Shown here in pieces: positions 4,829 through 52,614 of a DNA stretch of 64,000 nt. This DNA comes from Desulfoscipio sp. XC116 (GTDB lineage Bacteria > Bacillota > Desulfotomaculia > Desulfotomaculales > Desulfallaceae): the NCBI RefSeq assembly GCF_039851975.1, contig NZ_CP156660.1, forward strand, positions 2,671,035 through 2,735,034, written 5' to 3'. Every line of letters begins with the position of its first letter. Within the stretch, counting starts at the first letter, position 1. Under the pieces are notes generated by a model. That model was not told where the DNA came from, searched no databases, and was given only the letters and a program-made list of their open reading frames with translations. Made by a program: the position numbers and the translations under genes.

Positions 4829-4879
4829 GTTCAATAATAATCAAACGTACTCCCACCATCACTCGTGGTGTTGTCCGTA

Positions 4880-5075
4880 TCCCAAAGAATAGGCAGGTCT
4901 TCTGGCTCAAGTCTCATTGCTTCCCCTGCCTTCCCGGTTTCCCAGTGGCATTCCGGAGAATCTCCACTCTCACAGCGACGGGACCGCGCGGGCTTTTACC
5001 CGACTTCCCCTTTCACCAGAGCATGCATCAATTTTTCATATATATCCCCGGCACCTGTTCCGCATATTCATTTGC
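4880..5075 (-). promoter_or_regulatory. Cobalamin (AdoCbl-type) riboswitch
   Basis: Read on the minus strand, the stretch has the ordered conserved blocks of the cobalamin aptamer: ACAGGTGCC near 5057, CTCTGGTGAAAGGGGAAG, a hairpin with CGGGTAAAAGCCCG, GCGGTCCCGTCGCTGTGA, ATGCCACTGGG, GGGAAGGC and the B12-box-like GCCAGAAGACCTGCC near 4905-4891. A strong terminator follows 50 nt downstream, so the likely logic is transcription off when cobalamin is plentiful. The genes under it are the methyltransferase remnant and, by read-through, the ABC importer. Confidence 0.88.
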
Positions 5076-47564: not shown

Positions 47565-50051
47565 TTATTTAACCACAATATTCACCAATTTACCGGGCAC
47601 CGGTATCACTTTAACCACCTTTTTATCACCGATCAGTTCCCGTACTTTTTCCTGCTGCATAACCATTTCACGCATAGCGTCGGGCTTAATACCGGCAGGC
47701 ACCAGCATGCGTTCACGCACCTTGCCGTTAATCTGCACCACAATAGTAATTTCATCTTCTATAACAGCTTCAGGATCATATTGTGGCCAGGGCCGGGCAT
47801 GAATACTGCCTTCATGTCCGGTTAAGCTCCATAACTCCTCAGTGATATGGGGAGCAAAGGGAGCCAGTAGCAACAGCAAAGTTTCCACCGCCTCGCGCAA
47901 AACCCCGGTATCACGATCGCATTCGGACACCTCCCGGTACTGGTACATGGCGTTTACCAGTTCCATGATGGCACTCACCGCGGTATTAAAATTAAACCGG
48001 TTACCCACATCCTCCGATACCTTTTTAATAGCCAGATGCGTCATCCGGAGCATGTCTTTGTTAACTCCCACAAGATTAGTACCCTTGTCCCGGGCTGCGC
48101 CTTTAGCCAGCACATCGCTTAAGGGTGCAACCAAACGCCACACCCGATTTAAGAAACGGTAACAGCCCTCAACTCCCTGGTCGCTCCACTCTAAATCACG
48201 CTCGGGGGGAGAAGCAAACAAAATAAACAGCCGGGCCGTGTCGGCGCCATATGCGGCCACGATATCCTCCGGACTTACCACGTTGCCCTTGGACTTGCTC
48301 ATCTTGGTCCCGTCTTTGAGTACCATGCCCTGAGTAAGCAGATTGGTAAACGGTTCATCATTATCAACCAATTTCAGGTCATAAAGCACCTTGGTGAAAA
48401 ATCGGCTGTACAACAAATGCAAAATAGCATGCTCCACACCACCGATGTACTGATCCACCGGCAGCCACCGCCTTACATTGTCAGGATCCCAGGCATTGGC
48501 ATCATCCCGGGGACTGGTGTAGCGGTAATAATACCAGGAAGAACACATAAAAGTATCCATGGTGTCGGTTTCCCGGCGAGCCGGGCCGCCGCAAGCAGGA
48601 CATGTGGTATTAACAAAGTCCGCATGCTCCTCCAGCGGAGAACGGCCGGTAGGCTTAAAGGCCACATCCATGGGCAGCATGACAGGCAAATCCTTATCGG
48701 GTACCGGCACCACACCGCACTTAGCGCAATAAATAATAGGAATAGGCGCACCCCAGTAACGCTGACGGGAAATAAGCCAGTCCCGCAGCCGATAGTTAAT
48801 TCGGCCGTCACCCAGTCCTTGTTCCTGCAAATATTTTATCACAGCGGTGATGCCCCGCCGGTTCGGTGTACCGTTAAACGGCCCGGAATTGACCATTAAC
48901 CCTTCGCCGTCGTAAGCTTCTGTCATCACGGCAGCATCCAGCGTAACTCCTTCGGGCTGGATGACCACCCGGATGGGCAGGTTATACTTGCGGGCAAACT
49001 CAAAGTCCCGCTGGTCGTGGGCCGGCACCCCCATAACAGCACCGGTGCCGTATTCCAACAGCACGTAATTGGCCACCAAAACAGGCACTTTTTCTCCGTT
49101 TGCCGGATTAATGCAGTAAGCACCGGTCAGCAAGCCGATTTTTTCAGCATCGGTGGAAGTACGGGCCAGTTCACTTAAATTACGCACGTTTTGTACGAAT
49201 TCTCTGATTTTCCCGGCCTGGGGTTTACCTTCAATTAATTTTTCCACCAATGGATGCTCCGGTGCCAGTACCATATAAGTAACACCATAGATAGTATCCG
49301 GACGGGTAGTGAAAACAGTAATGGTTTCATCGGCGCCATCGATTTGAAATTTAATCTCGGCCCCTTCACTGCGCCCAATCCAATTTTCCTGCATAATTTT
49401 AACTTTATCCGGCCAGCCGCCCAATTTTTTCAGATCAGCCAGCAAACGGTCGGCATAGCTGGTAATCTTAAAAAACCACTGCTCCAGTTCCCTTTTCTCC
49501 ACAACGCTGGAACAACGCTCGCAAGCACCTTCTTTAACCTGCTCGTTGGCCAGCACCGTAGCGCAGGAGGGACACCAGTTCACGGCGGATTTCTTTTTAT
49601 AGGCCAGCCCATGGTGATAAAGCTGCAAAAACAGCCATTGTGTCCACTTATAATAACCGGGATGGCAAGTAGCCACCTCCCGGTTCCAGTCGTAACTGAT
49701 ACCCAACTGCTTAAGCTGGGCCCGCATGGAGTCAATATTATCCTTGGTCCACTGGGCCGGGTGCAGTGCTCCATGCTTTATGGCCGCGTTCTCCGCCGGC
49801 AAACCGAAAGCGTCCCACCCCATGGGGTGCAGCACATTAAAGCCTTGCATCGTTTTAAACCTGGCCACCACGTCACCAATGGAATAATTACGCACATGGC
49901 CCATGTGCAGTTTTCCCGAAGGGTAGGGAAACATCTCCAGACAGTAGTACTGGGGTTTATCGCCAAAGTCGGGCACGGCATACATATTCTGCTCCGCCCA
50001 TTTTTGCTGCCACTTTGTTTCTATTTCCTTAAATTCATAGCGGTCCTTCAT
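47565..50051 (-). CDS. leuS: Leucyl-tRNA synthetase
   Basis: 828 residues from ATG 50051 (GGGAGG six bases upstream; a further in-frame start at 50084 is unlikely). HIGH motif [15 protein letters not shown], zinc site CPSC...CERC, CP1 editing domain with [14 protein letters not shown] in [12 protein letters not shown]-terminal domain ending VNIVVK. A weak promoter (TTGAGT-N17-TTATAT) exists just upstream, but the leucine-type T-box leader is placed before the acyl-CoA ligase gene, 1.8 kb upstream. Confidence 0.97.
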
Positions 50052-50162
50052 TGGTTCCTCCCGTATGTTGTAACTGTTTCGCAACGTGCAGATATAATTC
50101 TATAGCACAACCCAACTCAAATATTATCATATTATGTCTTTTTATAAAAGTTAGGTCTGATA

Positions 50163-51827
50163 TTAAGCCGGATTAGCCGCATTTTCGTAGCGAGACAGCT
50201 CCTTGATGCCTATTTCCCTCAATTTAAACTTCTGCACCTTACCGTTGGCGGTAGTTGGGTAACCGTTAACAAAGTGAATATGGGACGGTATCTTATAACG
50301 GGCAATCTTGCCGGAACAATACTTTTTAATGTCTTCAGCGCTCATAGTGACCTCTTCCTTTAACTGAATAAAGGCCATAACCTCTTCCCCGTATTTTTCA
50401 CTGGGCACACCCACCACTTGCACATCTTTAATCTGCGGGTGGGTGTATAAAAATTCCTCAATTTCACGGGGATAAATATTTTCGCCGCCCCGAATGATCA
50501 TGTCTTTAATCCTGCCGGTTATTCTAAGATAACCGTTTTCATCCATAATACCCAGGTCACCGGTATGCAGCCACCCCTTGTTATCAATGGCCGCGGCCGT
50601 GGCCTCGGGCATTTTGTAATATCCCTTCATAACATTGTAACCACGGGCGCAGATTTCACCCTGAGCCCCGAACGGCATTTCATCGCCGCTTTCCGGGTCG
50701 ACAATCTTTACTTCGACCCCTTCCAGCGCTTTACCCACCGTGGATACTCTTATTTCAAGCGGATCGTCGGTATGAGTCATGGTAATGCCGGGTGCCGCCT
50801 CGGTTTGGCCATAGGTAATTACTATTTCCCGCATCCCCATTTTCTCCACAACGGCCTTCATCACTTCAATAGGGCAGGGAGCCCCCGCCATAATACCGGT
50901 ACGTAAGGAAGACGTATTGTAAGGCTGTCTCTCGAGCACTTCCAACTCGGTAATAAACATGGTGGGCACCCCATGCAGCGCCGTACACCGCTCCTTTTCC
51001 ACCGCTTCCAGGACTTTCACGGGGTTGAATGCTTCTATCATGACCATAGTGGTCGCATGGGAAACACAGGCCAAAGTGCCCAACACACAACCAAAGCAGT
51101 GGAACAAAGGCACAGGAATGCACAGGCGGTCATCAGGACCAAAACTCATGCATTCACCAACACTATAGCCATTCCCTACCAGGTTATTATGAGTCAGCAT
51201 AACTCCCTTGGGAAAACCGGTAGTTCCCGAAGTATACTGCATATTAATAACATCGTCAGGGTCCAGAGATGATTGCCTGGCCATCAGTTCCTCGTCAGTA
51301 ATCCCCTCGCCCATGGCCAGCACATCCTGCCAGTCAAAAATGCCGGGCTGGCTTTCGTTACCAATGTATACCAGGTTTTTCAACTTCGGCAATCTTTTGC
51401 AATTCAAACGGCCAGGCATACTGTCCCGCAATTCCGGGCACAGTTCATATACCATATCAACGTAATTTGAATCTTTGATACCGCTGGAAAAAATTAAAGT
51501 GGTGGCATCGGATTGCCGGAGCAAGTATTCCAATTCAAACACTTTATAATTAGTATTTACCGACGTTAATATCGCTCCCATTTTGCCGCAGGCAAATTGA
51601 AGCACGACCCATTCCGGTATGTTGGCCGCCAAAAGAGCAACATGCTCACCCCTTTTGATACCCAGAGCCATCAATGATTTAGCCACCCGGTTGCATTGCT
51701 GCTGAAACTGCCGATATGTGTATCTGATACTGCTGTCCGGATAAACCACCGCTTCATTATGGGGGAACCTGCCCGCGGATAAATCCAGCAGTTCCCCAAT
51801 GGTAATTTGATTGTCAAGTTTCTTCAT
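50163..51827 (-). CDS. Acyl-CoA synthetase (AMP-forming), fatty-acid/medium-chain type
   Basis: 554 residues from ATG 51827 after AGAGGTGACGGC. AMP-binding P-loop MQYTSGTTGFPKGVMLTHNN, VITYGQTEAAPG, TGDLGIMDENGYLRITGR and catalytic Lys in TANGKVQKFKLRE. Activates a carboxylic acid to acyl-CoA; close to FadD/AcsA-like enzymes with unknown chain length. Its position between a T-box leader and leuS is unusual: rsfS-leuS is the usual order, so this gene appears to have been inserted under leucine control. Confidence 0.92.
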   Translation of the reverse strand: MKKLDNQITIGELLDLSAGRFPHNEAVVYPDSSIRYTYRQFQQQCNRVAKSLMALGIKRGEHVALLAANIPEWVVLQFACGKMGAILTSVNTNYKVFELEYLLRQSDATTLIFSSGIKDSNYVDMVYELCPELRDSMPGRLNCKRLPKLKNLVYIGNESQPGIFDWQDVLAMGEGITDEELMARQSSLDPDDVINMQYTSGTTGFPKGVMLTHNNLVGNGYSVGECMSFGPDDRLCIPVPLFHCFGCVLGTLACVSHATTMVMIEAFNPVKVLEAVEKERCTALHGVPTMFITELEVLERQPYNTSSLRTGIMAGAPCPIEVMKAVVEKMGMREIVITYGQTEAAPGITMTHTDDPLEIRVSTVGKALEGVEVKIVDPESGDEMPFGAQGEICARGYNVMKGYYKMPEATAAAIDNKGWLHTGDLGIMDENGYLRITGRIKDMIIRGGENIYPREIEEFLYTHPQIKDVQVVGVPSEKYGEEVMAFIQLKEEVTMSAEDIKKYCSGKIARYKIPSHIHFVNGYPTTANGKVQKFKLREIGIKELSRYENAANPA

Positions 51828-51870
51828 GCCGTCACCTCTAATCCTTTGTCTAGTTAACATGTTAAAGAGA

Positions 51871-52208
51871 AAAAATAAAATAAAAAACCCCTCTTCCCCA
51901 AAGGGACGAGAGGTTGATCTCGCGGTACCACCCTAATTGATAAAGTCTTTGGTGGAGATGAGGGGGATCGAACCCCTGACCTCCTGAATGCCATTCAGGC
52001 GCTCTCCCATCTGAGCTACATCCCCGTGACTTTAACCGCTTGGTATGTTAACGGCACATGCCGTCCCGGTATACTTATTTTTTCCACCGGGCAACTCCGG
52101 GGCGAGTTCATTCGCCTTACCCACCGCCTCACACCAACCGGCGGCTCTCTGCGGGATAAAACAGCGATATTACTATTCCCCTTCATTGTTATTTGCCATA
52201 TTAAACTG
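51871..52208 (-). promoter_or_regulatory. T-box leader (leucine-type specifier) interrupted by a tRNA gene
   Basis: Read on the minus strand: stem I region with GAAGGGGAATAGTAATATCG, CAGAGAGCCGCCGGTTGGTG, then the specifier loop GAACTCGCCCCGGAGTTG (52109-52092), where CTC follows GAA as in other T-boxes, i.e. leucine. At the other end is the T-box sequence AGGGTGGTACCGCG (51934-51921) and the terminator CCTCTCGTCCC...AAGAGGGG plus T-run (51916-51871). Between them lies a complete tRNA-Ala. TAAAGTC (52034-52028) and GACTTTA (51947-51941) pair perfectly around it. Confidence 0.9.
51950..52025 (-). tRNA. tRNA-Ala (anticodon GGC), inside the T-box leader
   Basis: 76 nt with encoded CCA. Acceptor GGGGATG/CATCTCC including the alanine identity pair G3-U70 and discriminator A. 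D arm GCTC/GAGC, anticodon stem CCTGA/TCAGG with loop ATGGCAT (anticodon GGC), T arm AGGGG-TTCGATC-CCCCT. All arms pair. Only two bases (AC and AA) separate each end from the 7-bp flanking helix. Confidence 0.97.
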
Positions 52209-52214
52209 AGCATA

Positions 52215-52243
52215 ATTATAAAAGAATTAACATATAAAGTCAA
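52215..52243 (-). promoter_or_regulatory. SigmaA promoter of the T-box/tRNA transcript
   Basis: TTGACT (52243-52238), 17-nt spacer, TATAAT (52220-52215): near-consensus. Starts just after the rsfS stop and predicts a 5' end near 52208, a few bases before stem I. Confidence 0.85.
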
Positions 52244-52254
52244 CGATAAAAATA

Positions 52255-52614
52255 TTACATACTTAACGGGGATTTTATTATCCGAGCGTCCCCCCATAAG
52301 TGCTCCAGATTATAAAAACGGCGTTGTTCCTCCTGAAAAACGTGTATTACCACTGAGCCGTAATCCAACAAAACCCATTGCGCCGTCTTGAACCCTTCCC
52401 TGCGTGGTTGACCGGCGCCGTGCTGCCGCAAGTGTTCTTCAACTGCATCGGCAATGGCCCGGGCATGCACCGGTGACCTGCTGCTGCAAATAATAAAGTA
52501 TTCAGCCACTACGGAAACACCGCCAATGTTTAACACGGTAATATCCATGGCCCTTTTCCCTTCCGCCGCTTCAACAGCCAACCGCACAAGAACATCAGGT
52601 TCATTTATCAACAA
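52255..52614 (-). CDS. rsfS: Ribosomal silencing factor RsfS
   Basis: 119 residues, TTG start after AGGGGGATTGC. Typical blocks: AVEAAEGKRAMDITVLNIGG, VAEYFIICSSRSPVHARAIA, WVLLDYGSVVIHVFQEEQRR, FYNLEHLWGDA. Binds L14 and blocks subunit joining under starvation. Preceded by yqeK as in most Firmicutes. Confidence 0.95.
   Translation of the reverse strand: MLINEPDVLVRLAVEAAEGKRAMDITVLNIGGVSVVAEYFIICSSRSPVHARAIADAVEEHLRQHGAGQPRREGFKTAQWVLLDYGSVVIHVFQEEQRRFYNLEHLWGDARIIKSPLSM

Follow-up and report, generated by a model that had tools for sequence, protein, structure and literature searches.

We found that the leader between rsfS and the acyl-CoA ligase and leuS genes of Desulfoscipio sp. XC116 contains, on the minus strand, a promoter, a full-length leucine T-box and, within the T-box, a complete tRNA-Ala(GGC) gene. 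The same nesting recurs in Bacillota and Chloroflexota. It is old and widespread, beyond what the window (the whole stretch of 64,000 nucleotides analyzed) could show by itself. We suggest that the leader is probably an old dual-output RNA, in which one promoter serves both a tRNA-Ala precursor and a leucine T-box.

All features described for the window are on the minus strand. A sigma-70-type promoter (TTGACT, 17 nt, TATAAT; 11/12 matches; 52215..52243) lies 5' of the whole composite. The T-box leader (51899..52195) matches the leucine-type RF00230 from end to end (model positions 1-219) with 144.7 bits and an E-value of 2.2e-32; the curated Rfam cut-off for this model is 93 bits. From the alignment and the sequence we located the conserved segment of stem I (AGAGAG...CCGG, 52138..52151), the specifier codon CTC for leucine (52104..52106) and the stem IIA/B region (52049..52070) with CCGTTA, which we take to be the F-box. 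Next come the purine motif RRRxG (AAGCG, 52037..52041; motif as given in the available parts of PMC7583486) and the 5' arm of stem III, GTTAAAGTC (52028..52036). The tRNA-Ala(GGC) gene (51950..52025) replaces the stem III loop. It was found by ARAGORN and by RF00005 (65.2 bits), has an encoded CCA and the G3-U70 pair, and is aligned by cmscan as an insertion that splits the stem III helix into its two halves. The 3' arm, GACTTTATC (51939..51947), is followed by the AA (51937..51938) that completes the RRRxG-stem III-AA discriminator motif, by the T-box sequence AGGGTGGTACCGCG with the antiterminator bulge UGGU (51921..51934), and by the intrinsic terminator of the T-box (51882..51913), which would also end a short tRNA transcript. 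The arms form one U-U mismatch and then a helix of 7 bp, TAAAGTC/GACTTTA, that closes around the tRNA with a spacer of 2 nt on either side.

The earlier note had recognized most of this anatomy from the letters. The complete tRNA at the position of the stem III loop of a leucine-type T-box, the near-consensus promoter beginning at 52243, the CTC specifier in stem I, and the T-box sequence and terminator 3' of the tRNA were all found where it had placed them, and its description of the enclosing helix was exact.

The gene context fits a leucine T-box. The first gene downstream encodes an AMP-dependent acyl-CoA ligase (50163..51860) and the second is leuS, for leucyl-tRNA synthetase (47565..50084; TIGR00396, 1133.6 bits); rsfS, for ribosome silencing factor, is the upstream neighbor (52255..52614). 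A gene for the cognate tRNA-Leu(GAG) is present in the genome, which fits the CTC specifier and the downstream leuS. In model score, specifier, stem III with RRRxG and AA, UGGN bulge and terminator, the T-box is as expected for RF00230. We found no second match in the window at gathering score that could represent another aptamer or antiterminator unit of a tandem T-box. The promoter scan found no promoter-like site between stem I and the tRNA on the same strand; the earlier note had held that an independent promoter there, together with the lack of any transcript across both parts, would speak against its reading. The other 14 T-box matches of this genome had no tRNA within their stretches and 1.5-kb flanks. 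Elsewhere in the window there is a cobalamin riboswitch (4875-5073, minus strand, 91.7 bits).

The earlier note had proposed a comparison with related genomes. By DNA search, the whole composite was present in 22 of 41 genomes of the window's order (its own genome included), both within the window's genus and family and in further families. We then used a neutral pattern that specifies neither an amino acid nor a gene: a tRNA T-arm, 20-50 bases, and the T-box core. It matched 47 of 113 genomes of the order (reversed control, 0), 91 of 398 genomes of the phylum Bacillota (reversed control, 1 genome), and 34 of 301 genomes of Chloroflexota (reversed control, 7), the phylum of a Ktedonobacteraceae genome that has the nesting. 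The order and phylum sets have 15 genomes in common. Two further draws within the window's phylum, which consisted of identical genomes and gave 46/199 each, were left out of the counts. Because the matches were far above the reversed control (47 versus 0 and 91 versus 1), we rejected chance overlap of tRNA and T-box as an explanation. Matches that did not look like chance came from 33 families of Bacillota; in 31 of these ARAGORN confirmed a tRNA at at least one locus, and f79 (masked) and f104 were counted from the matched string only. Among the matches listed, the nesting was present in a Thermosyntropha sp., Peptococcaceae BRH_c4a and BRH_c4b, a Thermoanaerobacteraceae metagenome-assembled genome (MAG), Firmicutes ADurb.Bin153, a MAG labelled Actinobacteria, and a Ktedonobacteraceae MAG.

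The tRNA in the slot was nearly always the same. There were 146 distinct pattern loci, and ARAGORN found a tRNA across the pattern in 132 of them. This tRNA was Ala(GGC) in 128 (98 outside and 30 within the Chloroflexota set). Ser, Leu, Tyr and Arg tRNAs were found once each (L061, L065, L094 and L256); we took these, by eye, as chance neighbors since the sequence 3' of them lacks the full T-box consensus. ARAGORN found no tRNA at the remaining 14 of the 146 loci, of which at least two (L254 and L257) resemble nests that were cut or masked by assembly. From the 34 matching Chloroflexota genomes, 32 loci were read: 30 were nested and two were due to chance.

The setting of the 128 Ala(GGC) loci was also nearly constant. 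The gene downstream was leuS at 105 loci and an acyl-CoA ligase at 20; neither was within the available stretch at three. A CTC context was present at 124 of 128 loci, a rough count made with a pattern not anchored to stem I. CTC was visible at three of the other four, and the stretch printed for the fourth missed the specifier region. In one set of loci, most nested cases had an rsfS match upstream (exceptions, L058, L062 and L125). The pairing of Ala(GGC) with leuS is best explained, from these sequences, by common descent, with selection for coupling as a possible alternative.

We scored the T-boxes around the tRNA against the Rfam model. Among 20 sources, 14 of the 17 nested loci exceeded the RF00230 cut-off with the tRNA left inside. 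The three that did not were L054 (86.7 bits), L062 (85.5 bits) and L039 (76.7 bits, with L209 standing for L039). Four of seven further Bacillota loci and two of 13 Chloroflexota loci were above the cut-off; the rest of these two groups scored 49 to 91 bits, with E-values of 1e-7 or less.

Stem III is part of the T-box discriminator and is framed by RRRxG and AA, according to the available parts of PMC7583486 and PMC7778990. The AA was present 2-4 nt 5' of the T-box GGG at 127 of 128 nested loci. The stem III arms covary between lineages (GGTAAAG/CTTTACC, GGCAGC/GCTGCC, GACAAA/TTTGTC and AGCAGA/TCTGCT). With a strict test for an outer-anchored helix of at least 5 bp plus the motif, 79 of 127 loci were positive (shuffles: mean 23.9, maximum 33). 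The window and much of its family fail this test because of the one U-U mismatch. A tolerant test, which asks for at least six of the first seven stem III pairs beside RRRxG, was added after the misses of the strict test had been seen. It was applied to 126 of the 128 loci (two with no AA or a very short arm were left out) and was positive at 94; when the arms were re-paired 500 times, the mean was 35.3 and the highest count 49. The result was similar within Bacillota (77/96; shuffled maximum, 49) and within Chloroflexota (17/30; shuffled maximum, 7). The window itself forms six of the seven pairs, flanked by AAGCG and AA. Our results are best read as indicating that the tRNA may take the place of the stem III loop and leave the switch intact.

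Our case for stem III and the cloverleaf does not draw on free-energy folding. In the lowest-energy ViennaRNA fold of the leader, both the enclosing stem III and the cloverleaf were absent. In local folds, a marker pair of the acceptor stem formed at 81 of 113 loci and was absent from the printed fold of the window segment.

Two variations of the nested tRNA were seen along the way. At L295-L299 (family f26 and two others) the tRNA has no encoded CCA, and at L296 the 3' arm of stem III begins immediately after the end of the tRNA as called by ARAGORN.

We found that the nested tRNA has the sequence of a working gene. G3-U70 is the alanine identity pair. It is kept in the 128 loci, as TCC stands opposite GGG in all 128 acceptor stems when these are read by eye in register (the ARAGORN register is off by one at L315). 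Among seven genomes of the genus, mean identity was 96.7% for the tRNA, 84.0% for the aptamer, 85.3% for the flank through the T-box, and 64.1% for the DNA past the terminator. Of the 41 genomes, 22 have the nesting, and in 20 of these the nested copy was the sole tRNA-Ala(GGC) gene detected with an anticodon-loop pattern; G015 and G022 had a second, free copy. GCC accounts for 40.7% of the alanine codons in 21 mechanically called open reading frames of at least 300 amino acids in the window. These sequence comparisons indicate that the nested tRNA-Ala(GGC) is likely under selection as a tRNA.

Two tRNA-Ala(GGC) bodies, GGGGATG... and GGGGCTG..., share the slot across L016-L045, even within one family, and the nested tRNA may have been swapped in place. 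The free copies in G015 and G022 are of the first type (GGGGATG...).

The position of promoter-like sites (at least 9/12 matches) differed between the two phyla. Scanning was possible for 84 of the 98 Bacillota loci and for 29 Chloroflexota loci. In Bacillota, a site 5' of stem I was present at 84 of 84 loci (shuffled, 16%), and a site between the specifier and the tRNA at three of 84 (shuffled, 1%). Given these counts, the tRNA in Bacillota appears to rely on the promoter of the T-box. In Chloroflexota, an upstream site was present at only 12 of 29 loci and an internal site at eight of 29 (shuffled, 6% and 3%, respectively), and the tRNA may therefore be driven separately from the T-box promoter there. 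All eight internal sites overlap stem II and consist of TTGYCG and a TANAAT-like hexamer with a spacer of 17 nt; this arrangement was noted at L325-L332. At another locus, L289 (192-558), a full T-box of 137.6 bits has a repeat-like insert (by eye) and a TATAAT directly 5' of the nested tRNA, which may be an intermediate on the way to a separate promoter for the tRNA.

Either part of the composite has been lost without the other, so the two functions are separable. In G011 and G013 the T-box is kept around a decayed tRNA (105.8 bits in G011; G013 judged by eye), and we found no other Ala(GGC) gene in either genome with the anticodon-loop pattern. At L045 (about 1620-1665) and L205, stem III holds the remnant of a decayed tRNA within a T-box that otherwise looks intact; the pattern detected no further Ala(GGC) gene in these genomes. 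Conversely, eight loci from six other families of the order have a promoter-like sequence, tRNA-Ala(GGC) and leuS downstream, with no T-box match up to an E-value of 0.5. leuS is 0.6 and 1.2 kb away at two of these loci, and a terminator-like hairpin follows the tRNA at most of them, by eye. In three genomes of f12 and f13, the T-box has a CTC context, an ordinary short stem III and, by eye, an rsfS-like end upstream, and the tRNA is elsewhere.

A LeuS tree of 110 rows placed the eight derived rows, which include seven of the eight loci without a T-box, among nested rows of the same order. They require four changes, at least three of which are forced by well-supported branches. The simplest reading of this tree is that the nesting preceded the losses. 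LeuS of Chloroflexota formed one group (96/82), and the simplest reading here is that the Chloroflexota cases probably do not stem from recent acquisition of leuS from Bacillota. Gains are beyond the reach of this tree, since its rows come only from nested loci and from the eight derived loci of the window's order, with no non-nested outgroup.

The expression, timing, processing and regulation that we infer for the composite are as follows. One promoter would give a transcript that folds into a working leucine T-box whose stem III loop is the complete tRNA-Ala(GGC). RNA polymerase would always transcribe the tRNA, ahead of the decision point. With charged tRNA-Leu(GAG), transcription would stop at the T-box terminator and give a tRNA precursor of ~330 nt, the terminator thereby doubling as that of the tRNA gene. 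When leucine is short, the same RNA would read through into the acyl-CoA ligase gene and leuS. The T-box would thus decide on the downstream genes only, and tRNA-Ala would be made in both states. The earlier note had likewise argued that the tRNA is made even upon termination, as expected from a promoter 5' of both parts. The supply of tRNA-Ala should be roughly constant because polymerase passes the tRNA before the decision point. After the decision, RNase P and 3' nucleases would release the tRNA and sever the spent aptamer from the mRNA.

As far as is known, T-box switching leaves stem III unremodelled, and what matters are the closing helix, RRRxG and AA. A tRNA could therefore be tolerated in stem III as long as the closing helix and the flanking purines are kept. 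T-boxes respond to a tRNA that carries extra 3' nucleotides as they do to a charged one, so the unprocessed nested tRNA should not trigger its own switch. The earlier note had also considered that processing, unless outpaced by regulation, would inactivate the switch, or that the T-box start has been reduced to a tRNA promoter with an attenuator. Neither view agrees well with the retention, in many families, of the specifier, stem I, the discriminator motif, the T-box bulge and the terminator, which is what use of both functions would leave.

Several other readings of the composite deserve consideration. The nested tRNA might mainly recruit RNase P to cut the aptamer off the leuS mRNA, tRNA-Ala being a by-product. 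The position between aptamer and antiterminator suits this, and the thrS and thrZ leaders of B. subtilis are indeed cut 5' of the terminator (available parts of PMC3997798). However, any tRNA would serve for such cleavage, yet Ala(GGC) alone was found, with G3-U70 (by eye) and the GGC anticodon kept and usually as the only Ala(GGC) gene found; moreover, several lineages without the T-box keep the tRNA before leuS. We consider this reading rather unlikely. Another case, in which tRNA-Leu sensing has been lost and what is left is a tRNA-Ala gene plus an attenuator ahead of leuS, is what the eight relatives with promoter, tRNA and leuS and no T-box match might suggest, as might the leader of G018 (L209) and 11 of the 13 Chloroflexota loci, all below the cut-off. 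The window and most relatives, however, retain the specifier, stem I, discriminator motif and T-box bulge, and the window's genome has the tRNA-Leu(GAG) gene, making such a relic very unlikely. It also seems highly improbable that the nesting is a by-product of overlapping neighbors, the tRNA having its own promoter inside the leader. Well-spaced internal sites at some Chloroflexota loci, one at L062 by eye, and the TATAAT of L289 are in its favor, but internal sites are rare in the scanned Bacillota, the window has none on this strand, and the arms of stem III pair across the tRNA.

The two outputs might instead be coupled. Binding of tRNA-Leu or the antiterminated fold could alter release by RNase P, such that leucine status affects how tRNA-Ala(GGC) leaves stem III, or the ACCA of the nested tRNA could compete for UGGU and tune the switch in cis. 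The exclusive presence of Ala(GGC) in the nested slot, before leuS or an acyl-CoA ligase at 125 of 128 loci, fits selection for coupling as well as descent; the tRNA is joined to the discriminator by a closed helix; and its ACCA end complements the UGGU bulge in sequence. Against this, lineages drop either half and retain the other. Stem III is also thought to be present in both folds, in which case its loop should not sense the decision, and the extra 3' nucleotides of the unprocessed tRNA should keep it from triggering its own switch. We regard coupling as unlikely. If it were true, availability of the tRNA that reads GCC, the most frequent alanine codon in the long reading frames of the window, would be tied to leucine supply. 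The preferred, dual-output reading has points against it as well. If the tRNA were a passenger, other tRNAs in the slot or other tRNA-hosting T-boxes might be expected, and in Chloroflexota the internal sites (8/29) and the scarcity of upstream ones (12/29) count against a single promoter for both outputs. The energy-based folds, and the strict helix test in which the window and much of its family fail, also speak against it.

Judged by sequence, each part looks like an ordinary member of its family, and the novelty appears to lie in the composite. Like other leucine T-boxes (RF00230) before leuS, the leader has all parts in order, a CTC specifier, a transcriptional terminator and leuS downstream. 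Unlike them, it has a whole tRNA gene as its stem III loop, a feature unmentioned in the available parts of PMC7778990, PMC7583486 and PMC2494555. The tRNA gene resembles other bacterial tRNA-Ala(GGC) genes in its cloverleaf, GGC anticodon, G3-U70 and usually encoded CCA, and differs from them in that a riboswitch supplies its promoter, leader and terminator and a helix of another RNA closes it. The B. subtilis thrS and thrZ T-box leaders are processed by RNase J1/J2 or RNase Y (PMC3997798, available parts), and there too a cut 5' of the leader terminator parts the leader from the mRNA; in the composite, tRNA processing enzymes would make the cut, at the embedded tRNA. The pseudo-tRNA linked to T-box control, as far as the available accounts describe it, is also a tRNA-like element in a longer RNA with a T-box connection. 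In contrast to the nested tRNA, which appears to be a true tRNA inside the switch itself, it has a Trp anticodon and acts outside translation.

The earlier note knew of no described case. Our search agrees: a tRNA nested in a T-box was not described in the open literature searched, which did not extend to the T-box surveys Gutierrez-Preciado 2009 and Vitreschak 2008, and no such nesting appeared in the available parts of PMC7778990, PMC7583486, PMC2494555, PMC3399842 and PMC3997798.

The composite would be a case of one RNA serving as precursor of one tRNA and sensor of another, recurrent in two phyla. If the switch works, T-box stem III tolerates a structured insert of 75 nt, which bears on the discriminator that senses aminoacylation. 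The natural sets (nested, tRNA decayed, T-box absent) allow regulation, tRNA maturation and RNase P access to be compared. The arrangement further suggests that some tRNA genes lack a dedicated promoter and terminator, and that separate annotation of tRNA and riboswitch divides a single unit.

The surroundings of the composite vary in ways that were noted in passing. Within the window's genus, the acyl-CoA ligase gene directly follows the leucine T-box at L001, L017 and L018, and leuS does so at L019-L022. Where present after the T-box, the acyl-CoA ligase would be under leucine control. At L258 (1696-1994), parts of a group II intron lie shortly 3' of the T-box. A tRNA-Ala(CGC) gene lies directly 5' of the T-box at L325-L331, L344, L345 and L062, where the order is tRNA-Ala(CGC), T-box with tRNA-Ala(GGC), and leuS.
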